Assembly: GCA_017459805.1 (NCBI GenBank)
Contig: JAFUCE010000006.1
Location: forward strand, 1 to 33,146
Source of the DNA: Eggerthellaceae bacterium
GTDB lineage: Bacteria; Actinomycetota; Coriobacteriia; Coriobacteriales; Eggerthellaceae
Direction of reading: 5' to 3'
Length of the DNA stretch: 33,146 bases
Shown one piece after another: positions 97 through 24,125 of the stretch. Under the pieces are notes generated by a model. The model was not told the origin of the DNA, made no database searches, and saw only the letters and a list, made by a program, of their open reading frames with translations. Every line of letters starts with the position of its first letter. Position 1 is the stretch's first letter. The position numbers and the translations under genes were made by a program.

Positions 97-1026
97 CTAA
101 AAGAGTCCGTTATACCACTGATTGAGTTCGTTACCTATAAGCATAATAATGACACAGGCAGCCGCAATGGCAGGGCCAAAGCGAATGGGTTTAAAGCCCA
201 AGCGGTCAGGAAGCGTACTGTCGTCATAGTCCGCATCTTCTGTTTGCCCCCGTTCCTGCAGTTCTGTGCCCGAGAAGCTTAAATCCTCTTGTCTGGCCTC
301 CCCTGCTTGCAGCAGTTTTCGCTGGCTTACGAGCGCCATAATAATGCCAATAATGCAGGCAAACATAATAAGGAACAGGCATTGCTGCCAGCCGAAATAA
401 ACGCCTGCTACAAAGAAGAGCTTGATGTCGCCACCGCCCATGCTGTCGCGCTTGAAAACGCGGTCGGCCACCATAACCACCACAGTCAGCGGAAGGGCGA
501 TTGCGAACCCGCCAACGAGTGAATCAATGACGGCGGTGCGTGTATCGATCTGGCCAAGCACTGGACCAGCAATCACAAGGTAGACCACATGCACGAGCAG
601 GGCAACAATAATGCACCAGTCAGGAATAGTGCGTGAATCAAGATCGACGAGCGAAAGGTAAAGCAAAAGGCAGGCAAAAATGAGAAACTCAATGGTGCGC
701 AGCGAAAGCCCCGCTGGCGAGGCAGCCTGCGTCCACACGATGGCCGCAAACACGAGGCCACATAGTAGTTCCGTTATGGGGTAACGAAGCGACAAGCGGC
801 TTCCACAATGTTTGCAGGTGCCACCCTGGATAAGCCAGCTCAAGACTGGCACCAATTCAGAGACGCTCAGAGTGTGGCCGCAGGATTGACAATGGCTCCG
901 TCCCCGAAGCACGCTTTCGCCCCTTTGGCGTCGAAGGGCAGCGCAATTGATAAAGCTGCCCATACAAAGCCCCAGGATAAAGGCCAGAAACACAAGTAGC
1001 GCAAGAATTGTTGGCGTAACAAACAA
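97..1026 (-). CDS. pilD: Prepilin peptidase (A24 family, PilD/ComC type)
   Basis: This membrane aspartyl protease cleaves, and probably N-methylates, type IV prepilins. The N-terminal zinc-type cysteine pairs are visible near residues 46-75 (CQSC and CKHC). The two catalytic aspartate motifs are present: LVDLDSRTIPDW near residue 127 and GGGDIK near residue 198. Multiple hydrophobic segments span the chain. The start is a TTG, chosen because AGGAAG lies 5 bases upstream on the minus strand; there is no earlier ATG. An acidic insertion of about 40 residues sits before the usual FGPxIA motif near the C-terminus, which makes the 309-residue protein slightly longer than many homologues. It lies downstream of the major pilin and is separated from it by a terminator-like hairpin. 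Its substrates should be the five prepilins encoded in this window. The family assignment is secure; the role of the acidic loop is unknown. Confidence 0.95.
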   Translation of the reverse strand: MFVTPTILALLVFLAFILGLCMGSFINCAALRRQRGESVLRGRSHCQSCGHTLSVSELVPVLSWLIQGGTCKHCGSRLSLRYPITELLCGLVFAAIVWTQAASPAGLSLRTIEFLIFACLLLYLSLVDLDSRTIPDWCIIVALLVHVVYLVIAGPVLGQIDTRTAVIDSLVGGFAIALPLTVVVMVADRVFKRDSMGGGDIKLFFVAGVYFGWQQCLFLIMFACIIGIIMALVSQRKLLQAGEARQEDLSFSGTELQERGQTEDADYDDSTLPDRLGFKPIRFGPAIAAACVIIMLIGNELNQWYNGLF

Positions 1027-1093: not shown

Positions 1094-1504
1094 CTAGCCT
1101 TCGGGGAATTCGAAACCTGCGCCACCGTTGCCCTTGCCCGTCGTCGTGACGTGAGCACCATTGTCGAAGAACTCAACAACAACAGAGTCGGTACGGTCGG
1201 AGAAGGTAAAGGCCTGAGAATTGCCATCGGCAAAAAGCACGATAACCTTATGGTCTTGCAAATCCGAGAAGGTAGCGCGCTGAGAATCGTCGGTTGCGCT
1301 CATCCAGTCGGCCTGAGCAAGTGCATAGAGAGCACGAGCATTTGCCTTGTCAGCCGTGTCTTTTGCGTTGTCGAGCTGGGCGGCAAATGCAGGAATAGCA
1401 ATTGCAACAAGCACCGCAATAATGGCGATAACAATCAAAAGCTCCATGAGGGTGAAGCCAGATTCACTGCGCTTTTGCTTACGCATGTTCAAAAGCTTGT
1501 TCAT
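1094..1504 (-). CDS. pilA: Major type IV prepilin (PilA-like)
   Basis: This 136-residue protein has a class III leader ending in SG, followed by FTLMELLIVIAIIAVLVAIA. The glutamate at mature position 5 and the long hydrophobic helix are both present. The C-terminal part is small, with no cysteines and a glycine-rich end. It is most likely the main pilus subunit: it has the standard small-pilin size, an excellent Shine-Dalgarno (AAGGAG at 1514-1519), its own TATAAT promoter and its own terminator. The leader is about 17 residues (MNKLLNMRKQKRSESG). Cleavage by the neighbouring PilD and polymerisation by PilB/PilC are inferred from family knowledge. It stands apart from the other pilus genes across a repeat-rich non-coding stretch, which fits independent and strong expression. 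Confidence 0.93.
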   Translation of the reverse strand: MNKLLNMRKQKRSESGFTLMELLIVIAIIAVLVAIAIPAFAAQLDNAKDTADKANARALYALAQADWMSATDDSQRATFSDLQDHKVIVLFADGNSQAFTFSDRTDSVVVEFFDNGAHVTTTGKGNGGAGFEFPEG

Positions 1505-2359: not shown

Positions 2360-3565
2360 CTAGAACCCTCCATACATCGTAAACATGGGCAGATAGACCG
2401 CCAAGAGGATGAAGCACACCACGGCTGCCAGCACAACAATGATGATGGGCTCGAGCAAGGACAGTGCCCGTGTGGAGGTGGTTTCAACCTCGTTGGCATA
2501 GTAGTCTGCCATGACTTCAAGCGTATTTTCCAAGGAACCAGTCTGTTCGCCTATGCCAGTCATTTCAACGACCAGGTCGGGGAAGGCTTTGGTTTTAGCC
2601 AAGCTCGTTGAAAGAGGCTTGCCCGCTTCTACATCCACCTGAGTCGATGCCAAGCACGATGCCATATAGGCATTCGACAATGAACGTGCCGTCACATCAA
2701 TGGCATCGGTCACGGGAAGACCAGCCGCCATCATCATCGACATGGTTGAAGCATATTGATGCGCGCCATTGTTTTCGCTGATTTTCCCTAAAACGGGAAT
2801 GGAAAGCCCCAGCTTGCTCCAGCTTTCGCGGAATGATTTGTTGCGCTTGGCAAGCTGCAAAGCCAGCAGCGCCAAAACAACAATAAGGGCTACGAGCAAA
2901 AACCACTTGCTCCACCAGTTCGACGAATCGATGAGGAAGCGGGTAATGGCGGGCAATTCAAGGTTCATCGCTTCAAAGGTCCGCGCGAAAGCGGGCACAG
3001 CGAATACCATGATAATGGCAACTACGATAACCGCAAGCACCGCAACAAAGGCAGGATAGATGAGTGCGCTTTTTGCCCGCGACTTAGCCTTCGATGAACG
3101 CTCGTAATAGGCAGCCATGCGCTTGAACACTTCTTCTAAGGTGCCTGAAGCTTCGCCCGCGCGTACCGACTCAATAAAGGTTGACGGCAGATCTTTGCCA
3201 TGTTTAGAAAAACTATCAGCAAGCCCGTAACCAGCAGAAACATCACTTGCCACTTCGTTGAGCACCGTCTTAAGGCGCTTGTCCGTAGTCTGCCCCGCCA
3301 CCAGTTCAAGGGTGCGCACAATGGGCATGCCAGCCTGCAAAATAATAGAGAACTGATTGCACATGACCGAAAGCTCTTTGTCACGCGTACGCGTGCTTCC
3401 CAAGAAAAGGTCTCTACCTCCTGCGGGAGCAGATTCCTTAATGCTTTCAACTATCAAGCCGCCTTCGCGCAGCTTTTCAATGGCTTCTTCTGGCGTGTTT
3501 GCTTCAACAACGCCGTCAACGGAAGCACCTGAAACCGAACGCCCTTTGTAATTAAATGCCTTCAT
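2360..3565 (-). CDS. pilC: Type IV pilus inner-membrane platform protein PilC (GspF family)
   Basis: This is the polytopic membrane platform that couples the assembly and retraction ATPases to pilin insertion and extraction. At 401 residues it has the normal length for the family. An N-terminal soluble segment (MKAFNYKGRSVSGASVDGVV) matches the start of GspF/PilC proteins. Two T2SSF repeats follow, roughly residues 65-190 and 265-390, each ending in a hydrophobic helix, and the protein closes with a transmembrane helix and the short tail MFTMYGGF. The start is an ATG with AAGGA about 10 bases upstream. It follows pilT by 15 bases and ends the pilB-pilT-pilC run, so it is probably co-transcribed with them. 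Confidence 0.95.
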   Translation of the reverse strand: MKAFNYKGRSVSGASVDGVVEANTPEEAIEKLREGGLIVESIKESAPAGGRDLFLGSTRTRDKELSVMCNQFSIILQAGMPIVRTLELVAGQTTDKRLKTVLNEVASDVSAGYGLADSFSKHGKDLPSTFIESVRAGEASGTLEEVFKRMAAYYERSSKAKSRAKSALIYPAFVAVLAVIVVAIIMVFAVPAFARTFEAMNLELPAITRFLIDSSNWWSKWFLLVALIVVLALLALQLAKRNKSFRESWSKLGLSIPVLGKISENNGAHQYASTMSMMMAAGLPVTDAIDVTARSLSNAYMASCLASTQVDVEAGKPLSTSLAKTKAFPDLVVEMTGIGEQTGSLENTLEVMADYYANEVETTSTRALSLLEPIIIVVLAAVVCFILLAVYLPMFTMYGGF

Positions 3566-3580
3566 GAAGTGCTATTCCTT

Positions 3581-4654
3581 TCACCCTCGCACGCTGCGAG
3601 AAAGGTAGTCCTTGTCATGGGCAACCTCGAGGGCGGTCTGCGTACTAATTAGGTTAGACCGCACCATACGCACCAGCATATTGTCGAAGGTAATGGAGCC
3701 TTCGTCAGCAGTCGTTGCTATGGTGTTGGCAATCTGGGGTGTTTTGCCTTCACGAATAAGGTTGCGAATAGCGGGGTTGACCATCATGAGTTCGCAAGCC
3801 AGCACGCGCCCCTCGCCCGACTTTGCGGGCAGCAATTGCTGGGCAAGCACCGCTTCCAGCGTGGTGGAAAGCTGCATGCGAATCTGCTGCTGGCGCTCTG
3901 CTGGAAATACGCCCACCAAACGGTCAATAGATTCAGCGGCTGACGCGGTGTGCAGGGTGGCAAAAACCAAGTGCCCCGTTTCCGCTGCAGTCAGAGCCGC
4001 TTCGATGGTCGCAACATCGCGCATCTCGCCAATTAAGATGATGTCAGGGTCTTGACGCAGCGCAGAACGCAAACCACTCGCAAAGCTGACCGTATCCTTT
4101 CCCACCTCGCGCTGGTCTATGCTTGCGCAAACCGGCTCGTAAAGGTATTCGATGGGGTCTTCCAAAGTAACGATGTGGACGCTGCGCTCAAGGTTAATCT
4201 GGTTCAAGATTGAGGCAAGCGTTGTTGACTTACCGCTGCCCGTTTCGCCCGTTACCAGCACAATGCCGCGCGTAAGCTTTGGGAAATCCAAGACCGCGGG
4301 CGGCAGGCCCAAGGAGTCCAGAGGCGGAATGGTGTCGGCAAGGAGGCGAATGGCCATATGGTAAACGCCCTGCACGCGATAGATATTAATACGACAGCGA
4401 ACGTCGGCTGCCGTTATAGCCAGGTCTACTTCGCCCGTCTTTTCAAGGTTTGCGTAAGAATCGCCCGCAATCTGATGCGCCAGGGCATCTATGGCGGCAG
4501 GCGCCAAAATACCCGTTGCAGCATCGCCTAAATCGTGCAGCTGGCCGTCGATACGTACCCGCGGCACACGGCCTGCACTCAGATGAATGTCGGATGCGCC
4601 CATGGCATGAGCAGCGGCAACGAGCTTGTTAAGAAGTTGGCTATGAGAATTCAC
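3581..4654 (-). CDS. pilT: Type IV pilus twitching/retraction ATPase PilT
   Basis: PilT is the hexameric ATPase that depolymerises pili, powering retraction, twitching motility and possibly DNA uptake. The 357-residue protein carries the Walker A motif GETGSGKST near residue 136, an Asp box, the Walker B-type ILIGEMRD, a His box (GHLVFATLHT) and the PilT hallmark AIRNLIRE near residue 292. The hallmark separates it from PilB-type extension ATPases. The start is a GTG with a GGGGG-type ribosome-binding site about 6 bases upstream. It begins 9 bases after the pilB stop, so the two are almost certainly in one operon. Its presence argues for a retractile pilus rather than a simple type II-like secretion pseudopilus. 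Confidence 0.95.
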   Translation of the reverse strand: MNSHSQLLNKLVAAAHAMGASDIHLSAGRVPRVRIDGQLHDLGDAATGILAPAAIDALAHQIAGDSYANLEKTGEVDLAITAADVRCRINIYRVQGVYHMAIRLLADTIPPLDSLGLPPAVLDFPKLTRGIVLVTGETGSGKSTTLASILNQINLERSVHIVTLEDPIEYLYEPVCASIDQREVGKDTVSFASGLRSALRQDPDIILIGEMRDVATIEAALTAAETGHLVFATLHTASAAESIDRLVGVFPAERQQQIRMQLSTTLEAVLAQQLLPAKSGEGRVLACELMMVNPAIRNLIREGKTPQIANTIATTADEGSITFDNMLVRMVRSNLISTQTALEVAHDKDYLSRSVRG

Positions 4655-4663
4655 CGATGCCCC

Positions 4664-6355
4664 CTAGTCTGTGGTATTGATAGTACGATAGGCTTCGTCA
4701 ACCGTGGTAATGCCTGCCAACACCAGGTCGCGGCAATTCGAAAGAATGGGCACGAAGCCCGACTCTTCCACGGCTTGAATCATGTCGTCAAGCGAAGCGC
4801 GGGTATGAATGGCAGACCTGATTTTGTCATCCACCACAAGAATTTCAGCTGCAGCAATACGCCCGCGATAACCGCTGCCAAAACATTCAGAGCAACCACT
4901 TCCGCGGTAAAACTCCACGCCTGCCCCCTCTTCTTCGGTCATGCCAAGCATCGCAAGCTCTTCAGCTGTTGGTGTATAGGAATGCTTGCAATGGGGGCAC
5001 ACGCGCCGCAAAAGACGCTGCGAAATAATACCCTTAAGCGCCGTAGAAACCATATAGGGCGCAACCCCTAAGTCATGCAAGCGGTCGATAGTAGAAAGCG
5101 CATCAGAGGTATGCACCGTGGAAAGCACTAAGTGACCAGTGACCGCAGCGCGCATGGCAATGTCGGCTGTTTCAGAGTCGCGGATTTCACCCACGGCAAT
5201 AATGTCGGGGTCCTGACGCAGAATGGAGCGAAGGCCACTCGCAAAGGTCATCCCCGTCTTTTCATTCACCTGCACCTGATTGATGCCTTCAATCTTGTAT
5301 TCGACGGGGTCTTCCAGCGTAACGATGTTAACCGCTTCGGTATTAAGCTGATTCAACATAGAAAACATGGTCGAGCTCTTACCTGAACCCGTGGGGCCTA
5401 CCAGAAGAATTACCCCTGCCCTATTGCTGAGCAGAGCATTGAACTTTTCCAGGTTTTCACCCGAAAAGCCCAAGCCCTCGGGTGTTGATTCCTGCGCTTC
5501 GCGGTCAAGCAAACGCAGCATGATTTTTTCACCATGCACCGTTGGCAAGGTGGAGGAACGAATGTCGATTTCCTTGCCCTTGACCTGCATAAGGGTGCGG
5601 CCGTCCTGGGGCACGCGACGCTCAGTGACGTCCATGCCGCACATAATCTTGATGCGCGCCGTTACCGACTGTTGCAACTCCTTTGGAATCGCCAAGTCAT
5701 CATGGAGGATACCGTCGATACGCATGCGCACCCGCATATCGTCTTCGCGAGGCTCGATATGAATGTCGGAAACGCGGTCAGCAATGCCGCGCTCGATAAT
5801 GGTGTCAACCAAACGAATAGAAGGTGCCGCCTGCGGGTCTTCCACACGCGCAACCGCAGCACCCGTTGCAAAGGCTGCATCTTCTTCGCTTTCCTGCTGC
5901 ATTTCGCGGATAGCGCGCTTGGCGCCTTCCGTGCCATACAATTCGGAAATAGCATGCTCCATAGCGGCGGCGGTCGCAATCATGGGGACCACCCGCTTGC
6001 GGCTGGCCGCCTTTACTTCTTCACTTGCAATAAAGTTCAAAGGGTCAACCATGGCCAGGTACAATTCGTCGCCACGGGTTTGCACGGGCACAACCGAATA
6101 CTTCTTGGCAATATTTTTTGACACGTATTGCGTCATTTCGGGGGCAATTTCAGTGGTCGTTAAATCGATAAACTCGATACCAAGCTGACGCGTCAGAGCA
6201 CCAATAAGTTGCCGCTCGCTTATCGCACCCGAATCAATGAGCTGTTCGCCCAAACGCTTCTTACTTTCTTTTTGCTGCGCAAGCGCCGTATCAAGCTGAT
6301 CCTGGCTAATAACACCAGCATCTACCAGAAGGTCGCCCAAACGTGTGTATTTCAC
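4664..6355 (-). CDS. pilB: Type IV pilus extension ATPase PilB
   Basis: PilB is the cytoplasmic ATPase that drives pilus polymerisation through PilC. The 563-residue protein begins with an MshEN-type domain (roughly residues 1-150), which in some relatives binds cyclic di-GMP. It is followed by the GspE/PilB ATPase core with Walker A GPTGSGKSS near residue 325, an Asp box, Walker B-type IIAVGEIRD and the His box GHLVLSTVHT. A tetracysteine zinc motif (CPHC...CSEC) sits near residues 455-487, as in classical PilB/GspE. The start is a GTG with AAGGT about 9 bases upstream. It lies 17 bases downstream of the minor prepilin gene. Control by cyclic di-GMP is possible from the MshEN family but is not shown here. 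Confidence 0.95.
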   Translation of the reverse strand: MKYTRLGDLLVDAGVISQDQLDTALAQQKESKKRLGEQLIDSGAISERQLIGALTRQLGIEFIDLTTTEIAPEMTQYVSKNIAKKYSVVPVQTRGDELYLAMVDPLNFIASEEVKAASRKRVVPMIATAAAMEHAISELYGTEGAKRAIREMQQESEEDAAFATGAAVARVEDPQAAPSIRLVDTIIERGIADRVSDIHIEPREDDMRVRMRIDGILHDDLAIPKELQQSVTARIKIMCGMDVTERRVPQDGRTLMQVKGKEIDIRSSTLPTVHGEKIMLRLLDREAQESTPEGLGFSGENLEKFNALLSNRAGVILLVGPTGSGKSSTMFSMLNQLNTEAVNIVTLEDPVEYKIEGINQVQVNEKTGMTFASGLRSILRQDPDIIAVGEIRDSETADIAMRAAVTGHLVLSTVHTSDALSTIDRLHDLGVAPYMVSTALKGIISQRLLRRVCPHCKHSYTPTAEELAMLGMTEEEGAGVEFYRGSGCSECFGSGYRGRIAAAEILVVDDKIRSAIHTRASLDDMIQAVEESGFVPILSNCRDLVLAGITTVDEAYRTINTTD

Positions 6356-6372: not shown

Positions 6373-6945
6373 CTATTCAAAGCTTTCATCGCTTAGCGTT
6401 TTGCACACAAATTCACAGGCCCGCGAGTATGTTCCATTCGGCATAACAATGCTGTAGTGCGCCGTGAACACATTCGTGTCGCATGAATACTCGAGGTTAA
6501 AATCACTTATTTCAAAATCGGTATAAATGCCCGAAGATTTCGGAATGAATTGCACTCCGCCAGGACTGATGAGGGCAATTTTGCCGTCGGATATACCAAT
6601 CTGCCCAGAGCGCACCGCTGCACCCGACGAGTCGAAGTAAGAGTCGGAGTCGAAACTCGGATCGCTCACGTCGCCCGCCCCATAGGGCGCATGCACGCTT
6701 GCGTAGCGCAAGACATCGCTTAGGGCTGTTTCAATGGACTGTTCAAGAACAGCGGCATTCGATGCCGTCTGCGTTTGCTCCATAACACGCGTACCTGTCA
6801 GCATGGCGGTGGTAACCACAAAACCTAAAATGGCAAGAACAAGAAGGGCTGCAAGTACTTCTATAAGCGTAAAACCCGCCTGAGCACGACGTGGTGCTTG
6901 CGCATCGGTTGGACCCGGGATATGTTTCTTGAAATGCATCATCAT
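6373..6945 (-). CDS. Minor type IV prepilin (PilW/GspJ-like position)
   Basis: This 190-residue protein has a prepilin leader ending in QAG, followed by FTLIEVLAALLVLAILGFVV. Glutamate at mature position 5 is present. The C-terminal half is a soluble pilin-type domain with two cysteines (YSCDTN and RACEFVC regions). The start lies in a run of three ATGs. The first overlaps the TAA of the preceding gene by one base (TAATG), and no good ribosome-binding site is seen, so translational coupling is likely. By order and length it resembles the larger minor pilins that help start pilus assembly, but the exact subclass cannot be fixed from the sequence alone. Confidence 0.85.
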   Translation of the reverse strand: MMMHFKKHIPGPTDAQAPRRAQAGFTLIEVLAALLVLAILGFVVTTAMLTGTRVMEQTQTASNAAVLEQSIETALSDVLRYASVHAPYGAGDVSDPSFDSDSYFDSSGAAVRSGQIGISDGKIALISPGGVQFIPKSSGIYTDFEISDFNLEYSCDTNVFTAHYSIVMPNGTYSRACEFVCKTLSDESFE

Positions 6946-7289
6946 TAGTCCAAGCTATACGATTTGTATGTCCCCGTACTTCCGGTATAGATGGTCACGT
7001 CGTAGGCTTCTTCATAACCCGAAAAACGAACCTGCCCTGATTCCTGGGCAGCCCCATCGCGCGCACCTTGCATTTCCGCCGCAAAAAGATCATCGCGAAG
7101 CAATTGGCTGTTTTGGTCGGCTTGATTATTCATGCGCGCCGCTGAAGTAAGAGCGGTATAGAGCATAAGAACCGCCAAAGAACAAATGAGCAGGGCTGCC
7201 AAAGTTTCAACCAGGGATTCGCCGCGCATGCCAAGGCGAGCCCCCAAGGAGGCGCGAAGCTTGCGAGCGTATAATGCCATGCTGCGCAC
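6945..7289 (-). CDS. Minor prepilin with non-canonical cleavage site (GspI/PilV-like position)
   Basis: This small 114-residue protein has a basic N-terminus, then MRG followed by ESLVETLAALLICSLAVLML. Cleavage after the glycine would leave glutamate, not phenylalanine, at mature position 1, while the conserved glutamate at position 5 is kept. The start is a GTG whose G overlaps the TAG of the upstream gene (TAGTG). An ATG three codons inside is an alternative. The C-terminal domain is short. The gene lies between two other prepilin genes with 1-base overlaps at both ends, so it is probably made in fixed ratio with them as part of a tip or initiation complex. Confidence 0.8.
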   Translation of the reverse strand: MRSMALYARKLRASLGARLGMRGESLVETLAALLICSLAVLMLYTALTSAARMNNQADQNSQLLRDDLFAAEMQGARDGAAQESGQVRFSGYEEAYDVTIYTGSTGTYKSYSLD

Positions 7290-8104
7290 TACTCTACCCT
7301 CCCCTTTGAAAAACTCGGGCTTCCCCAGGTGATGGGGTCGCTTATGGTCGTGGTGGTCACTTCGTAGCTTTGCTCAACGCCATGGCCATATTCATTGGAT
7401 GCCGGCTCATGATTACCCGTCACTGGATTAATGGGCGTCATGTTTTCGTCAATCCAGGAAACGGAGCCGCCCTCGCCGTCCCATTCCCATCCATCAAGAT
7501 GCGTATCATTTTTCAGCGTGGTCACCTGCTCCTTTGCTTCACCGCGCACTGAAGGAACATGCACGACCATGGCATAACCGTAGCTGCCATCATCGGGTGA
7601 GGCGCTCAGCTCAATGTTGATGTTGTATTCGCTATCCATAAAAAAGGCGGCGTTCACGCTTTGGAGCCCGTCGGCTTCAATGGTAAATTCGCGCGAGAAA
7701 TCGCCTACGCCTGTGGCGGGGTCAATAGAGCAAAAAGCTTCTTCCATAAGCTGGGTAAGAGCTGTTGTACCAGACGCACTAAAGCTGGGTTGCGGATTAG
7801 AAACTATGTTGGCATCGGCATGCGTGTATGTTGGGTGCACGCTCTGGCAAGCATAGGACTTTGTCGTCGTTGAAAGAGCAGCAGAAGGCGCCGTGCGTTT
7901 GAGGTCGTCAGCAATAAGCTGAGCGGCAGAAGCTACCGCGTAGTAGGACTTCGACTGGTTTTGTGCAGACACGCCCTTGCCCGCGTTGGCAGCGGCCGCC
8001 ACAAGCACGACCGCGGCAACCATCGTGCACACCAACACCACCGCAAGGGCAAGGAGAATGGATGCGCCTTGCTGCGACTGATATTTTTTCACGAGCGCGC
8101 GCAT
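7289..8104 (-). CDS. Minor pilin, PilX/GspK-like, lacking Glu5
   Basis: This 271-residue protein has a basic N-terminus and then QQG followed by ASILLALAVVLVCTMVAAVV. Mature position 5 is leucine rather than glutamate. In type II secretion and type IV pili, the GspK/PilX subunit that caps the fibre often lacks this glutamate because no subunit sits above it. The soluble domain contains two cysteines and is rich in Ser, Thr and Asp, typical of exported pilin domains. It starts 3 bases after the giant prepilin stop and overlaps the next gene by one base. The exact homology to PilX or GspK is inferred from length, the N-terminus and gene order. Confidence 0.78.
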   Translation of the reverse strand: MRALVKKYQSQQGASILLALAVVLVCTMVAAVVLVAAAANAGKGVSAQNQSKSYYAVASAAQLIADDLKRTAPSAALSTTTKSYACQSVHPTYTHADANIVSNPQPSFSASGTTALTQLMEEAFCSIDPATGVGDFSREFTIEADGLQSVNAAFFMDSEYNINIELSASPDDGSYGYAMVVHVPSVRGEAKEQVTTLKNDTHLDGWEWDGEGGSVSWIDENMTPINPVTGNHEPASNEYGHGVEQSYEVTTTTISDPITWGSPSFSKGRVE

Positions 8105-8107
8105 GCC

Positions 8108-11100
8108 TTATTCCCACCAATCAAAGCCGTAGTGGACGAATTCACCATCGTTGTTTGTGCACACCGCAGGATACGGGTAGCGATAGTCACTCTGGATCAA
8201 ATGCCCGGGCACAAGACGTACGTCGTAGAAGTAAGCGTTGCCGTAAACAGGAACGTCACCACCGTAGGCAAAGGCAGCCCCAAGGGACGCGCTCTTCAAT
8301 TCATCGGGCGTGCACGAGATTACGCGGTCGTCGTCCATGGCACCCGTAGTAAAGCCGCCACCAGAACCATCGTCCCAGCTCAGGCGATAACAATTGTTGA
8401 GAGTATTGTCGTCTGGGTTAGTAATGTCGAAATGCTCAACAATATCGTTTTCAGTAGCAATAGTGTTACCTTCGGCAAAAGCATAAGCGTAGCAATGAGC
8501 AATTGAACCGCCACCAAATCCGTAGCCGGCAATACCACCCTGGAGCAACTGCCTCCCAGAGCCTGCACCCAAAGCCTGGCCAAAGAGATTGATTTCTACG
8601 GCGTAACAGGAGTTGATAGAACCCCCATTGCTGCCCGTCAGGCCACCAAGCCCAAGGTTTGCCGCACTTGTACAAGTGCTGACCACGGACACATCAACAT
8701 TGGCAGCCGAAGAACGCTCAATAGAACCTACGTTTACCCCAACGAGACCGCCCACGGAAGCGTCGTCAATGTAGGCACTACCCGCATATACCGAAAGACC
8801 TGATGCGCTGCAGCCCTCGACGGTGCCGTCAAGCCAACCGACAAGAGCACCCGCAGCAAGCGTGCCTCCACTCGTTTGACCATAGTGCACAACAGAGGCC
8901 TCGTTAAGCTGCGATCCAACCAAGTGAACATTGGAAACCGTGCCCATGACCGAACCAAACAGGCCCACGTCGTCGCGACCATTGGCACTAATAAAGAAGT
9001 CGATAATCGTATGGTTATGACCGTCATAGCTGCCCATGAAGGGTTCCGTCTTGCTTGCAATGGGCTGCATGGCATAGGTTCCAGACTTAAAGTCAAGCGT
9101 GTCGCCTAAGTAGTTTGACGTGTAATAGCCTTCACCAGAGTCGATGTCGTAGGCCTGAATAATGTGAGCATTCGAAGCCCAATACGCACTCTGTACAGCA
9201 AGACGATTAAGGTGGCGCGGCGTGCGCACATACAGCGAGCTTGTGTCGGGTGCGTCAAGCGAGCCGTCGGCGCCGGGATTGCTTACCAGCATGGCAAAGT
9301 CGGGGTTGTAATAGTAGGAATAGGTTTCTGCCGTCGACCCTGCCGCATCGGCAAAACTGAGTTCAAGCAAATCAGCAAAGGACGTCGCCGTGCGACTAAG
9401 CATCTGCAATTCAAAGGGAAGCTGATAGACGAAGAAGTCGTCAAGCGTAAGGGTTTCGCTTCCATTCCAGTAGTACAGGGAGTCAACGTTAAGTTCGACA
9501 AAGGACCCAGCCTGCGGGACATTAGCACGCGTCAGGCGCTGCTTTTCCCCACCATTCAAGGAGTATTCAAAGCCGCGAATGGCATAGGTCGAAAGGAGGG
9601 CATAGCCATCTTCAACGATAACAATGCCGCCGTTTTCGCCATCAAGCGTGTTGATAATAACAGGCCCATCAGGCGTTTCTTGCGTTCCATAGAAGCCATA
9701 GTCGCCGTCGGCATAGAGTTCGTAGTAAACGAGCATGGGCTTGAAAGAAAGCGAGGAAGGCCAATTGCCCCAATGCTCTTCAAGCACGTTGGCAAAGGGG
9801 AAGGCGCTGCCCATGAGGCTTTCCCGGTATGGGAAGCTATGGTCGGCCGCTAGGCGCATATCGGCAAGATCGCCATAGCTTTTCGCTTCAATGCCTGCAG
9901 GCTGCGGCATCAAGAAACTGTTGTAGCCCACGTCCTGCAAGAAAGCACAGTTGCTGAAGCTTGCGCCTTCGCCGCCGGTGAAACCGCCACCAAGGTCGCT
10001 GTTCACGCGCCCATATGCCATAGTGTTAGTAATACTGCCAGCCGAAGCTTGCCCCGCAATACCGCCACAATAGCCACTCGTATTAATGTCTGAGGTCGAA
10101 TAACAATCCGCAATGCTGCCTCCATCGAAGCTGCCAACGAGGCCGCCCACAATGTCGGCACCAGTCACTTCACCCGACGCGTACGACTGGCTGATACTGC
10201 CTTGGGACGCAAAGCTGCCAACGAGGCCACCCACGCTTATGGCAGAAGGCGCCACCACGTCAATCGCAGCAAAGGAGCGAGCGATGTTCGCGCTGCCCGT
10301 AGCCAAGCCCACAAGACCGCCCACAGCATCGCTTGCATCCGATGAAACGGTATGGGTGGAAACCTTGTCGAGGGCGGAAGCTTCGCGCACTTCAAGGCGC
10401 ACCCCACAGTTTTCGATGCTTCCCTGAAGTTCGCCACACAGCGCACCGCAGGGGCCACCGCCATAAACCTGCGGGTCAACGAGAATAGTGTTGCGTACCG
10501 CCTGAGCACTTTGAATAGTGGCAAAGAGGCCTGTTTCGGCGCTTCCTGCGATATAGAAATCGTTCAACTGATTGCTATTGCCGTCATAGCTCCAGGCCAC
10601 ACCCGCCGTTTCAAGAGGCATAAAACCTGAAGCACCGTCAACCACGCGCGGATCGAGCGGGTTAACATATTCGGTGCTATAAGTATCGAGGTTGTAGTCC
10701 TTGCTTGCACTCGAAAGCTCGCTTACTTCGCTTGACCCCCAATACATCGCATCAAAATCAACGGGGGCAACTTGTATAACCGAACGTGCATCATTTCCTA
10801 TAAGACGCAAGTTATTAATATGGCGCACGTTAGCGACTTCGATATCGCCACTATTGTTTTTCGCGAAAAGGCTGTTGTCTTTAGCCTTGGCCTGCATGTT
10901 TGCTGGCGTAGAAATGACCACTCCATTGCCGTTGTAGAGTACTTCGACCGTTGCTTCTATGTCGGCCCCGGGGCTAAATGTGGGAAACAAATCGGCCAAG
11001 TGGAAGCCTTCACGCATACTGTCGAACACTATGTCAATATCGATATTGCCCGCTGCGTCCAGATGGAAGTCCTGGCCGCCAGTTAGAACAAGGGTTTGGC

Positions 11101-11866
11101 TTTCACCATCGCAGTCCAGCACGATGCGCATTTCCATATCGCGTTCGTTGCTTACCAAAGCAAGGCTTCCAGGGCAAGCAACTTTCAAGAACAATTCTTC
11201 GCCGTTAACGAAGGTCGCATACGGACTGAAATGGTCGGGCAACTCTGAAGAGGCCGTTGTTATGCCACAGTAGTAGCCCACCGGGTACCCACTGCCCGTG
11301 TTCATGCGGTCGGGGCGATTCCTGCTCGCAAGGTTTTGCACATCAGCAAAGCTAAAATCGGGGTCTTCTGAGTAAAACACCGCGTAGACGTCGGTGCCGT
11401 CCGCACGCGGATTAATCTCGAAAATATAGCGGCCGCCCTTTGTGAGCCCATCGAGTACGGATGTGCGCGCAACGACCTCGGCTAATGCCAGGTCAGCATC
11501 GTTTTCAGCAAAAGATGACGCCGCGCCACCCTGTAGGTAGTAGTATTCCACCCAATCTGAGCCAAGCGCATCATGAGGCATGGCACCCAAACTGCCGAGA
11601 TTGCGGTCCTGCCGTGTTTGAAGCACCGCAGCATTAAAGCCGGCATATTCGCCCGATGCTTCCATGGTAATAAATTGGTCTTGAACAGCCACGTATAGTT
11701 CTTTTGCGTAGTTGTCGAGACGATTGATTTCTGAATTACGCGCGATTTGCGCCAGTGAAGGCCCTGCAATAACAAGTATGACCGCCAAAATGGCAATAAC
11801 AACAAGCAGCTCCATGAGCGTGAAACCCGCACGAAAGCGTTGAGAATATTGCCCTATTTTGCCCAC
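8108..11866 (-). CDS. Giant prepilin with two GLUG-repeat blocks, probable pilus-tip adhesin
   Basis: About 1,252 residues, against 120-200 for a normal pilin. The N-terminus is a true prepilin: a leader ending in RAG, then FTLMELLVVIAILAVILVIA with glutamate at mature position 5. Next comes a long region resembling a pilin domain and unknown beta-rich sequence. GLUG-type repeats (VGGLVG and related) occupy about residues 514-633 and again about 964-1133; these usually build beta-helical or adhesive surface domains. The frame is open back to ATGs at 11953 and 11932, but neither has a strong ribosome-binding site. The GTG at 11866 has AAAGG 5 bases upstream and gives a normal 14-residue leader, so I prefer it. 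It heads the minor-pilin genes. A role as an adhesive tip subunit is inference. Confidence 0.85.
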   Translation of the reverse strand: MGKIGQYSQRFRAGFTLMELLVVIAILAVILVIAGPSLAQIARNSEINRLDNYAKELYVAVQDQFITMEASGEYAGFNAAVLQTRQDRNLGSLGAMPHDALGSDWVEYYYLQGGAASSFAENDADLALAEVVARTSVLDGLTKGGRYIFEINPRADGTDVYAVFYSEDPDFSFADVQNLASRNRPDRMNTGSGYPVGYYCGITTASSELPDHFSPYATFVNGEELFLKVACPGSLALVSNERDMEMRIVLDCDGESQTLVLTGGQDFHLDAAGNIDIDIVFDSMREGFHLADLFPTFSPGADIEATVEVLYNGNGVVISTPANMQAKAKDNSLFAKNNSGDIEVANVRHINNLRLIGNDARSVIQVAPVDFDAMYWGSSEVSELSSASKDYNLDTYSTEYVNPLDPRVVDGASGFMPLETAGVAWSYDGNSNQLNDFYIAGSAETGLFATIQSAQAVRNTILVDPQVYGGGPCGALCGELQGSIENCGVRLEVREASALDKVSTHTVSSDASDAVGGLVGLATGSANIARSFAAIDVVAPSAISVGGLVGSFASQGSISQSYASGEVTGADIVGGLVGSFDGGSIADCYSTSDINTSGYCGGIAGQASAGSITNTMAYGRVNSDLGGGFTGGEGASFSNCAFLQDVGYNSFLMPQPAGIEAKSYGDLADMRLAADHSFPYRESLMGSAFPFANVLEEHWGNWPSSLSFKPMLVYYELYADGDYGFYGTQETPDGPVIINTLDGENGGIVIVEDGYALLSTYAIRGFEYSLNGGEKQRLTRANVPQAGSFVELNVDSLYYWNGSETLTLDDFFVYQLPFELQMLSRTATSFADLLELSFADAAGSTAETYSYYYNPDFAMLVSNPGADGSLDAPDTSSLYVRTPRHLNRLAVQSAYWASNAHIIQAYDIDSGEGYYTSNYLGDTLDFKSGTYAMQPIASKTEPFMGSYDGHNHTIIDFFISANGRDDVGLFGSVMGTVSNVHLVGSQLNEASVVHYGQTSGGTLAAGALVGWLDGTVEGCSASGLSVYAGSAYIDDASVGGLVGVNVGSIERSSAANVDVSVVSTCTSAANLGLGGLTGSNGGSINSCYAVEINLFGQALGAGSGRQLLQGGIAGYGFGGGSIAHCYAYAFAEGNTIATENDIVEHFDITNPDDNTLNNCYRLSWDDGSGGGFTTGAMDDDRVISCTPDELKSASLGAAFAYGGDVPVYGNAYFYDVRLVPGHLIQSDYRYPYPAVCTNNDGEFVHYGFDWWE

Positions 11867-12016
11867 GTACGCCTTTCTGTTCTTAGGTGTTGTATGTAGC
11901 TTCTTGTAGGCCCACGTTCTTTCGTTGCTCATACGTTTCTTGTCAACCAGCATATTTTAGCATTTATCGGGCATTTTGTACCAAATTTGTGCGTCTCTTG
12001 CGCTTATAAAGAGGGC

Positions 12017-12183
12017 TGGTGGCAATATGTGACGAAGGGTAGCTGGCGGCAATGAATAGCTGAAAGGTAGTTGGTGGCAATGAATGGCTGAAAGGTAGCT
12101 GGCGGCAATGAATAGCTGAAAGGTAGCTAGCGGCAATGAATGGCTGAAAGGTAGTTGGCGGCAATGAATAGCTGAAAGGTAGT
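12017..12183. repeat. 28-bp tandem repeat array upstream of the giant prepilin
   Basis: Five 28-bp units start at 12044, 12072, 12100, 12128 and 12156, with consensus TGGCGGCAATGAATRGCTGA and then AAGGTAGY. A degenerate 27-base unit precedes them at 12017, and a partial sixth runs into the inverted-repeat element. One site alternates A, G, A, G, A across the five units, which suggests growth by duplication of 56-bp pairs. The period is not a multiple of three, so it is unlikely to be coding. There is no gene between 11954 and 12364. Confidence 0.85.
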
Positions 12184-12186
12184 TGG

Positions 12187-12295
12187 TGGCAAGAAATGAC
12201 GGAGTTGTACGGGTTTGAGTGCGAAAATGGCAAGAAATGACGGAGTTGCACGAGTTAAACTGGAAAAATCCGTACAACTCCGTCATTTCTTGCCA
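12187..12295. repeat. Dispersed inverted-repeat element, copy B
   Basis: Three 26-base arms at 12187-12212, 12228-12253 (direct) and 12270-12295 (inverted) match copy A at 1984-2092 in order and spacing. Arm 1 and arm 3 are perfect complements here over 26 bases. The inner spacer also keeps the GAACTGGAAAAATCC-like stretch found in copy A (AACTGGAAAAATCC identical). It sits next to the 28-bp tandem array. Confidence 0.8.
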
Positions 12296-22431: not shown

Positions 22432-23229
22432 TTAAGCGGCTCTTATGGGATGACTCCGGTACTGCACCGGGGTCATTCCTTTTAGCCCAACTTGGTAGCG
22501 TCGTGTATTCCAATAAGTAATGTATTCTTCAAGTTCCTCCTTGAAAGACTCGAACGATTCGAACCTTCGTTTGCGGTAGAACTCATCTTTCATGTGCCCG
22601 AAGAAGCTTTCCATGCAGGCATTGTCTAGACAAGTCGCCTTTCTTGACATGCTCTGCTCGACCCCAAGTTCCATAAGCTTTAACTGATACGATTTCTGCT
22701 GGTATTGCCAGCCTTGGTCAGAATGCAGCAGCGCCGGGCCATTGAGTTTTGGCTCAAGCATTGCAATCATCTCATTAACCTGCGCCATGTTTGGGCGCTC
22801 TGACACCGACCAGGCAACAATTTCGTTGTTATACAAGTCCATAACAGGCGATAGATATGCCTTACCCCAAGGTTGGTGGAACTCAGTTACATCTGTGGCA
22901 AGTTTTTTCATCGGGGCATCTGAATGAAAGTCTCTGTCGAGCACGTTCTTTGCGACCTTGCCCTGCTCACCTCTATAGGAGTTGTATTTCTTTCTTCTAA
23001 TCTGGCAGGCAAGACCTTCTTCTCTCATGAGGCGCAGAACCGTCTTTCCGGATATGCACAGTCCCTGCTCATTGCGAAGCACGAGCGCGACCTGGCGATA
23101 CCCCATGCCATTTGGTGTGCGGGAGAACGCCTCTTCGACCAGGGGTCTTACGTCTGCATAGTTGTCTTGCTTTGGGTGCGAGAGGTTGTAGTAGTAGGTT
23201 GAGCGCTTGAGACCGAGCTTCTCGAGCAC
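22432..23229 (-). CDS. IS3-family transposase OrfB (DDE integrase)
   Basis: This is the catalytic part of the transposase, 265 residues. An HTH_21-like segment (LGLKRSTYYYNL to QIRRKKYNSY) precedes the rve integrase core. The DDE triad is visible: Asp in ATDVTEFHQP near residue 114, Asp in LLHSDQGWQYQ near 170 and Glu in ACMESFFGHMKDE near 206, with 35 residues between the last two. It ends with the usual YNTRR-type motif (YWNTRRYQVGLKGMTPVQYR). The annotated start is a GTG, but the frame is open further upstream into orfA (AEIASSLRRKWSLALVLEKL), as expected when OrfB is made as an OrfAB fusion by -1 frameshifting. It appears intact. Confidence 0.93.
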   Translation of the reverse strand: MLEKLGLKRSTYYYNLSHPKQDNYADVRPLVEEAFSRTPNGMGYRQVALVLRNEQGLCISGKTVLRLMREEGLACQIRRKKYNSYRGEQGKVAKNVLDRDFHSDAPMKKLATDVTEFHQPWGKAYLSPVMDLYNNEIVAWSVSERPNMAQVNEMIAMLEPKLNGPALLHSDQGWQYQQKSYQLKLMELGVEQSMSRKATCLDNACMESFFGHMKDEFYRKRRFESFESFKEELEEYITYWNTRRYQVGLKGMTPVQYRSHPIRAA

Positions 23230-23252
23230 TAGGGCCAGGGACCACTTCCGCC

Positions 23253-23738
23253 TCAGCGACGATGCGATTTCTGCTCGATCTCGTCCGCTAAGGCGTTTAT
23301 TCGTTTTTGGATTTCAAGCTCCAGTTCTAGTTCCATCACACGAGCTTCAAGCTCTTCCTCGCGAGAAGCGTAGACAGGTTTGTCGGGTTTGGGTTTTCTC
23401 CCCTTGGGTTTTGGCAGCAGAGCATCGGGCCCGCCTTCCCTGTACTTGCGACACCAACTCCCAAGTGGCGACATCGAAGCAATGCCATACTTTTCCATTA
23501 CTTCCGGCTTGCTCATTCCGCGTTCTATCACATCACGAGCAGCTGCAACTTTGAGATCATAGCTGTATGATTTGTGCGTTGTCACAAACAGAGCCTCCTT
23601 TCCAAGTGCTCTGTAAGTGTACAACCATTCTCCGACTGTGGCCTCTGGTAGGCCTAATACTGATGCAGCACTCTTGTCTCCACATCCTTGTTCGAACAGG
23701 TCGATAGCTGCTTGCCTCACCGACAAATCGTATTTCAT
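23253..23738 (-). CDS. IS3-family transposase OrfA (HTH DNA-binding)
   Basis: This 161-residue protein has two helix-turn-helix units: MKYDLSVRQAAIDLFEQGCG with KSAASVLGLPEATVGEWLYT, then DLKVAAARDVIERGMSKPEV with EKYGIASMSPLGSWCRKYRE. A basic linker (KPKGRKPKPDKP) and a coiled-coil leucine-zipper-like end (EEELEARVMELELELEIQKR) follow. It should bind the IS ends and dimerise. The frame is open to 23804 through the IS end, but ATG 23738 is preceded by GGGGGTGA and follows the terminator-like hairpin, so it is the likely start. The codons near the end overlap the OrfB frame. Confidence 0.9.
   Translation of the reverse strand: MKYDLSVRQAAIDLFEQGCGDKSAASVLGLPEATVGEWLYTYRALGKEALFVTTHKSYSYDLKVAAARDVIERGMSKPEVMEKYGIASMSPLGSWCRKYREGGPDALLPKPKGRKPKPDKPVYASREEELEARVMELELELEIQKRINALADEIEQKSHRR
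23303..23310 (-). other. Candidate -1 programmed frameshift site of the IS
   Basis: On the minus strand the OrfA frame reads CAA AAA CGA over a run of five As (23304-23308). Slipping back by one enters the OrfB frame, which is open from here to the OrfB stop. The A-site lysine tRNA re-pairs fully. The shift would join OrfA to the NKRLSGRDRAEIASSLRRKW segment before OrfB. Confidence 0.5.
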
Positions 23739-23755
23739 ACCATCACCCCCATGAT

Positions 23756-23788
23756 AAAAAGTGGACCGGAAACTTTTGTTTCCGGTCC
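23756..23788 (-). terminator. Terminator-like hairpin at the IS right end, facing the transposase
   Basis: GGACCGGAAAC (23763-23773) and GTTTCCGGTCC (23778-23788) are perfect complements around a 4-base loop. On the minus strand the stem is followed by AC and TTTTT (23760-23756), just before orfA. It should stop transcripts entering the IS from outside, a known way for insertion sequences to limit transposase expression. Confidence 0.7.
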
Positions 23789-23803
23789 AACTATCGGGGT
23801 TCA

Positions 23804-24125
23804 CTTCACCTGTTCACCCGTCACCTTTTTCGTTCATCCCTGCCCGCTGTTCAGAGAATTAGAAGATGCCATTCGTAAAGATGAACGAAAAACCCGTCCC
23901 CTGTTCACGCAACGACGGGTGACAGAGGGTCAGGTCTTGCGTCACCTTTTTGCAGACGATATTGGTATGCAGAAGCACGAAATGCAAGAGATCCTGGGCG
24001 ATGTAACTGCGAAAATGCCCGCCGCCCTTGAGCAGGCTGTTGGCTTGATGCCTAAGCAGGGCCAGAAGCAACTCGAACTGATTGCAGAAGACATGAAACC
24101 ACGCTTGCATCTTTTAGCAAGCTAA
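23804..24125 (+). pseudogene. 5'-truncated gene remnant beside the IS, possibly HipA-family C-terminus
   Basis: A frame runs out of the IS end into about 105 residues. Its last part (ADDIGMQKHEMQEILGDVTA, then MPAALEQAVGLMPKQGQKQL and a final RLHLLAS) has the helical pattern seen at the C-terminus of HipA-like kinases (an 'A..x-aLP.ALeqa...lP' segment and a terminal RL helix). No ribosome-binding site and start sit at a plausible place, and only 51 bases lie between sstT and the left IS end, so the rest of the gene is not on the other side. It looks like a remnant left after insertion and a neighbouring deletion. The HipA assignment is tentative; no HipB partner is visible. Confidence 0.45.

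Follow-up and report, generated by a model that had tools for sequence, protein, structure and literature searches.

Predicted minor prepilins with slot-specific N-termini are encoded in overlapping genes before PilB in Coriobacteriia and Bacillota

Minor pilins of the HIJK type are placed at the tip of type IV filaments, in the order H-J-I-K upward from the shaft, and the subunit that caps the complex, K, lacks the glutamate at mature position +5 (Glu5) (PMC10790768, PMC10191384; here and below, papers are cited for the portions of their text available to us). In the same two accounts, a subunit uses its Glu5 to neutralise the amine of the subunit above it, and in those portions an acid at +1 of the I subunit is no part of the logic. 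Tip complexes with a Glu5-less pilin have also been published for Gram-positive bacteria. The Com pilus of S. sanguinis is encoded by an operon of small prepilins, ComGD-GF-GE-GG, whose sole Glu5-less subunit, ComGG, caps the modelled tip complex (PMC10790768). Another form is S. sanguinis PilABC, of a monoderm type IV pilus, in which large modular, adhesive pilins stand beside a Glu5-less minor pilin (PMC9934059). There are three minor pilins there, and the Glu5-less one, PilA, is itself I-like. Hence, the slot of a pilin cannot be told from the loss of Glu5 alone.

We analysed a stretch of 33,146 nucleotides from an Eggerthellaceae bacterium (hereafter the window), which encodes a type IV pilus locus on its minus strand in the order D, C, B, A, PilB, PilT, PilC, PilA, PilD. 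The triad C-B-A sits between a giant prepilin of 1281 aa, D (8108..11953), and the extension ATPase PilB (4664..6355; Pfam T2SSE 1.1e-122, MshEN 1.4e-19). D has the processing site G|FTLMELL (N_methyl 2.1e-6) and a C-terminal body with GLUG repeats (Glug 1.2e-12), and is probably a modular (adhesive) pilin; our search of the open-access literature for GLUG together with type IV pili found none. The members of the triad are C (7289..8104; 258 aa mature), B (6945..7289; 91 aa mature, the smallest) and A (6373..6945; 166 aa mature, canonical G|FTLIE, N_methyl 3.4e-7). An earlier note had given their positions and atypical N-termini; coordinates, strand and sequences are right. It had described C as lacking Glu5 (G|ASILL), which holds for the N-terminus G|ASILLALAVVLV with its Leu at +5. 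It had also pointed to a glutamate at +1 of B (G|ESLVE). The residue is indeed there (G|ESLVETLAALLI), and the description must be amended in that B has Glu5 too, hence two acids. Behind PilB come a probable PilT-type retraction ATPase (3581..4654; T2SSE 1.8e-51), named for its size and its place directly behind PilB, the platform protein PilC (2360..3565; T2SSF 2.8e-59, in two stretches), the major pilin candidate PilA (1094..1504; G|FTLMELLIVIAI, N_methyl 4.6e-8) and the prepilin peptidase PilD with its methylase domain (97..1026; A24_N_bact 2.7e-28, Peptidase_A24 4.3e-16).

The genes of the triad are tightly packed. C and B share one base at 7289 (TAGTG, i.e. the stop TAG of C and the start GTG of B) and B and A share one at 6945 (TAATG, stop TAA and start ATG), confirming an observation already made on this DNA. 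The gap between D and C is of 3 bases and the one between A and PilB of 17. Such joint encoding of minor prepilins in an operon is also a trait of the HIJK and ComGD-G sets. A purine-rich GGGGAGG can be read inside C, upstream of the GTG of B, and no such stretch is seen upstream of the ATG of A. Thus, A in particular may depend on the translation of B. Several repeats lie around these genes: an array of 5.7 copies of a 28-base unit (12034-12192) and two copies of a 41-base repeat (12187-12269) in front of D, and a similar-looking 41-base repeat between PilC and PilA (1984-2066). They may influence how the pilus genes are expressed, or be repeats without such an effect. Just behind PilA, on the minus strand, is a terminator-like hairpin with a T run (1045-1068), so that PilD and PilA may belong to separate transcripts; hits of this kind are no more numerous than in shuffled sequences. 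Elsewhere in the window, two adjacent open reading frames (22432-23804), read from the list of frames, presumably resemble an insertion-sequence transposase pair.

The machinery is of the type IVa kind: PilB, PilT, PilC and PilD are encoded in the window and PilM is found on another contig of the same genome, at the contig's start (C124:17-850). The contig of the window ends behind PilD. The highest-identity named match of the window's PilB is in an uncultured Eggerthellaceae bacterium (L109; 91% over residues 161-563), a PilB stretch that is the same as that of L035 in the genome G004 of the same genus. The genes behind PilD in L109 encode, in this order, PilM, a protein with no Pfam match, a T2SSM-type protein (at cut-off) and an S1-domain protein; the unmatched protein, between PilM and the T2SSM-type protein, is PilN by position only. 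With the second ATPase, PilM and the other components, this is a monoderm type IVa pilus system, which is probably retractable. This sets the locus apart from the Com pilus. Unlike the latter, with its eight-component core devoid of PilT and PilM, it has two T2SSE ATPases in the operon, a PilM in the genome, a giant, probably modular pilin and, at +1 of B, a Glu or Asp; its proteins also fall below the cut-offs for ComGE, ComGF and ComGG. Unlike in PilABC, the Glu5-less and the I-like pilins of the window are separate genes.

We then surveyed 133 PilB loci including the window, 80 of them named loci; 127 are distinct, six named loci repeating others. Candidate prepilins were collected with profiles seeded with A, B and C of the window and broadened by iteration. 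A triad was defined as three prepilins in a row, under a site rule that scored neither +5 nor, beyond barring Pro, +1. This rule flagged 41 loci, of which 37 were kept and 36 are distinct (22 in Coriobacteriia and 14 in Bacillota), a count that is not wholly independent of the window because the candidates came from profiles seeded with it. The 36 are the 37 less L117, which is the same stretch as L038. Four flagged loci of Bacillota (L114, L145, L150 and L185) were rejected as triads: their three prepilins in a row are tandem major-type pilins, all with Phe at +1 and Glu5, more than 5 kb behind PilB. No triad was found under the rule in 96 of the 133 loci, among which are contig ends and other PilB types; in some genomes the triad does not lie beside PilB. 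Slots were assigned by gene order, since the iterated single-slot profiles drifted into general prepilin models. The processing site of slot A in Eggerthella-type loci (G|FMLAEQ and alike) was set by the rule and by eye.

The N-termini of the 36 distinct triads differ systematically between slots. Slot B has an acid at +1 in all of them (25 Glu, 11 Asp) and Glu at +5 in all 36. Since Glu and Asp interchange, charge rather than one particular shape seems to matter at +1. Slot C never has Glu at +5 (17 Ile, 10 Leu, 4 Phe, 3 Val, 2 Tyr) and starts with a small residue in most cases (+1: 30 Ala, 3 Val, 2 Ser, 1 Ile; +2: 34 Ser, 2 Thr). Slot A has mostly Phe at +1 (29, with 2 Met, 2 Tyr, 2 Leu and 1 Val) and Glu at +5 in all 36. 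Glu5 is therefore missing from a single subunit and kept in the others, as in the HIJK and ComGD-G sets. Position -1 is nearly invariant (Gly in 36 for C; 35 Gly and 1 Ala for both B and A) and positions -3 and -2 vary. With Gly or Ala at -1, a basic leader and a hydrophobic stretch after the site, these proteins have the features of class III prepilins. In the window, Pfam N_methyl matches A and D above cut-off, B below it (13.9 vs 21.2 bits) and C not at all. Median mature lengths are 94.5 for B, 166 for A and 202 for C, which makes B the smallest and C the bulkiest.

The neighbours of the triads provide a comparison. At least 24 of the 36 loci have a long prepilin (755-2150 aa mature) next to the triad, a lower bound because only profile hits were counted; the loci missed include L034 and L175, each with a visible long prepilin. 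These D-type pilins have Phe (23) or Tyr (1) at +1 and Glu5 in 24 of the 24 counted, and the small pilins behind PilB have Phe at +1 and Glu at +5 in 30 of 30. Hence, among the counted pilins of the triad loci, an acid at +1 is seen in B alone. The giant pilin varies in its body by genus: it carries GLUG repeats in the window, and in Paraeggerthella (L117:2343-6494) it has no Pfam domain beyond N_methyl. Coupling is also widespread. Between C and B, 27 of the 37 triads have an in-frame start codon that overlaps the stop, and 36 have one at most 25 nt away; between B and A, the corresponding numbers are 18 and 31. These counts use possible rather than proven start codons. At the level of sequence, A, B and C are thus prepilins of the processed type, encoded in overlapping genes before PilB and having slot-specific N-termini across two phyla.

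The profile for B built with position +1 omitted (23 rows) is independent of the residue of interest. At a threshold of 1e-5, it matched in 45 of 392 genomes from the class of the window; in the class to which an Agathobacter relative belongs, it matched in 9 of 291. From these 54 genomes, 39 loci were returned, some of which are rows of the profile, and 35 have an acid at +1 of B (25 Glu, 10 Asp). In the window's class, the acid is present in 30 of 30 loci (21 Glu, 9 Asp; window included). In the other class, it is present in 5 of 9, and the exceptions (Thr, Val, Phe and Met) all score below 34 bits. One variant of slot B, in L220, has Thr at +1 and yet lies within a C-B-A-like row, so the acid is not universal.

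B also co-occurs with its PilB. It is present in 41 of the 42 genomes of the class having a close PilB (E <= 1e-190), and in the remaining one (G050) PilB lies at a contig end. One genus of the same order (g80) has nine genomes in which the set is found away from PilB and B is still flanked by C and A. In the loci of this genus (L190, L192, L195, L197, L200, L206, L209, L211 and L212) a further prepilin (G|FT..E) follows A, and the fetched stretches appear to end inside its gene. We placed the triads on a PilB tree (129 rows, quick method; the row L112 is an Actinomycetota record labelled there as Bacillota). They are spread over several branches of Coriobacteriia and Bacillota, and the Coriobacteriia bearing this type of PilB form two separate groups among Bacillota. 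This would fit lateral transfer between the two clades.

We then compared the three proteins with named minor pilins. Those of the window reach the curated cut-off of no named minor-pilin family, GspI, GspK, ComGE, ComGF and ComGG included, and A passes the generic prepilin-domain model. Among orthologues of C, 4 of 20 matched the NCBIfam GspK model (best 6.1e-5) and 2 of 20 matched ComGG. The 24 orthologues of B matched ComGF (12), ComGE (8), XpsI (6), PilV (5), GspI (2) and ComGG (2), while those of A matched GspG, ComGF and PilV (3 of 18 each). The best E-values for slot B were 5.4e-4 (ComGE) and 6.9e-4 (GspI), and for slot A 1.2e-4 (ComGF), which imply scores far below the curated cut-offs. 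Since most of the stretches matched by A and B of the window start from the N-terminus, the heads contribute little. Against the five pseudopilins of E. coli K-12, GspI scored best with slot B (14.2 bits, GspJ being close at 13.0), GspJ with slot A (9.0, followed by GspG at 8.6) and GspK with slot C (0.5, followed by GspJ at -0.8). These one-to-one best scores, small in their margins, weakly suggest the pairs I-B, J-A and K-C. Profile alignments with hhalign agree for A and B, and C shows no preference for GspK.

Predicted structures bear on the same question. The AlphaFold2 model of B (pLDDT 89.9) has a helix at 2-49 and a three-stranded sheet. In VIA-align, it matches one chain of the XcpGHIJK filament entry (9a1f_R, Z 4.6, 79 residues, 3.1 Å) and one chain of each of two EpsI:EpsJ entries (2ret_G, Z 3.1; 3cfi_A, Z 2.5), and unrelated long-helix proteins score as high as or above these pseudopilin chains. 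Foldseek listed no pilin among its best 50 matches to B. Searches with K-12 GspI and GspJ, meant to identify the EpsI:EpsJ chains, did not have 2ret or 3cfi among the matches listed. The model of C (pLDDT 82.2) has a helix at 2-58 and a beta domain. The matches listed for it by Foldseek and VIA-align are all weak (best Z 3.7) and include secretins and unrelated beta proteins; no K chain is among them, and in the best 50 the only type IV filament protein is archaeal and matched by its helix (Z 2.5). When solved structures were searched by profile, B and C gave no pilin up to E 5, and A gave S. sanguinis PilE1 at E 0.021.

How far does the set resemble GspH-I-J-K and PilH-I-J-K? The genes overlap in both (in K-12, gspH/I/J/K overlap by 4, 8 and 8 bases), I is small and K is bulky and devoid of Glu5 (K-12 GspI and GspK have precursors of 125 and 327 aa). 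The order of the genes differs, being D-C-B-A here vs H-I-J-K, K-12 GspI has Met at +1 where B has an acid, and the K fold was not found for C among the structural matches listed, its modelled head being mostly beta. The earlier note had read the locus by the GspH-I-J-K logic. This reading stands in that minor prepilin genes overlap and one product lacks Glu5 over many genera, to which the K-12 scores weakly add the correspondence of slots. It had placed this logic in a Gram-positive setting, which is correct, and the setting is not new in kind, having been published already (PMC10790768, PMC9934059). Neither this set nor an acid at +1 turned up in our searches of the open-access literature, and none of the open-access titles on Eggerthella and type IV pili concerns this pilus. 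The set is thus known in kind for Gram-positives, and what looks new is that its I-like pilin has an acid at +1 specific to that slot.

We propose that A, B and C form the conserved set of minor pilins from which a type IVa pilus is started, corresponding to J, I and K (ComGF, ComGE and ComGG, respectively) with C as the cap, and we give this reading a probability of roughly 0.7. The complex itself, its order, its position at the tip and the role of D are inferred by analogy with the described systems. The three subunits would meet in the membrane after cleavage by PilD. B, being I-like, would pair with A, which is J-like, and the K-like C would join on top. Because C lacks Glu5, nothing would be stacked above it, and C would cap the filament. 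The link between tip and shaft would be made by A or D, and D, which may be the fourth, H-like member, would display its large module near the tip. Overlapping translation would hold A, B and C at matched amounts. Several results speak against these assignments: no curated cut-off is reached, B matches ComGF more often than ComGE or GspI, GspJ scores close to GspI with slot B, and the structural matches listed for C contain no K chain. The absence of Glu5 alone is no proof of a cap, since mutants lacking it are reported to enter mixed filaments with normal pilins (PMC4471445).

The least certain step concerns the acid at +1 of B. Standing beside Glu5, it would pair with charges at the contact between B and C (the amine of C or that of B itself), and this pairing would confine B to the place under the cap. 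One may tentatively go further and take the Glu or Asp as a tip-address code, in which the acids at +1 and +5 meet the small, Glu5-less N-terminus of C; we regard this idea as doubtful. If true, such matching of charges would restrict B to the position immediately below the cap and would fix the single site from which a pilus can start.

The alternative that survives best covers only this residue and is compatible with a tip set: the acid may have no structural role at the tip and may instead tune processing or membrane extraction, so that tips start rarely. A 2017 paper reportedly deals, by its title, with the effect of polar N-terminal residues of pseudopilins on targeting and membrane extraction, and the interchange of Glu and Asp (25 and 11 of 36) speaks for charge rather than one shape. 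However, slowing of this kind could be built into any subunit or leader, and the acid is limited to one slot and kept through two phyla. We see this as possible, short of probable.

It is unlikely that A, B and C are instead accessory minor pilins distributed along the shaft, comparable to PilV, PilX and ComP of Neisseria (PMC10191384), rather than a set priming the tip. The divergence of the heads (orthologues of C are 14-31% identical to C of the window), the failure to reach the curated core families and the incorporation of Glu5-less pilins together with normal ones (PMC4471445) are consistent with such a role. Yet, B accompanies nearly every close PilB in its class and the order C-B-A is kept over two phyla, even away from PilB. 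We find it very improbable that B and C stay unprocessed by PilD, because the acid at +1 prevents their cleavage or methylation, and serve as assembly factors anchored in the membrane. An atypical Glu at +1 and the departure of C from the canonical (A/G)X4(D/E) motif (PMC3244431) would suit this reading. Against it, all 36 C and 35 of 36 B proteins retain Gly at -1 (the remaining B has Ala) though -3 and -2 vary, and processing reportedly does not require Glu5, as distinct from an acid at +1 (PMC4471445).

How a type IV filament starts, and how tip subunits are excluded from its shaft, is an unsettled general question. If A, B and C form the tip-priming set, as we favour, a single slot-specific and easily mutated position sets one probable tip pilin apart from the pilins of the same operon, in two phyla of gut bacteria. 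The triads also provide a signature for finding such sets in Gram-positives, i.e. G|[AVSI][ST]xx(not E)AL, then G|[ED][TS]xxE, then G|FxxxE, which is useful where C-type pilins escape the usual prepilin rule. If the acid of B does act as an address, it would amount to a residue-level rule by which type IV filaments distinguish tip from shaft.
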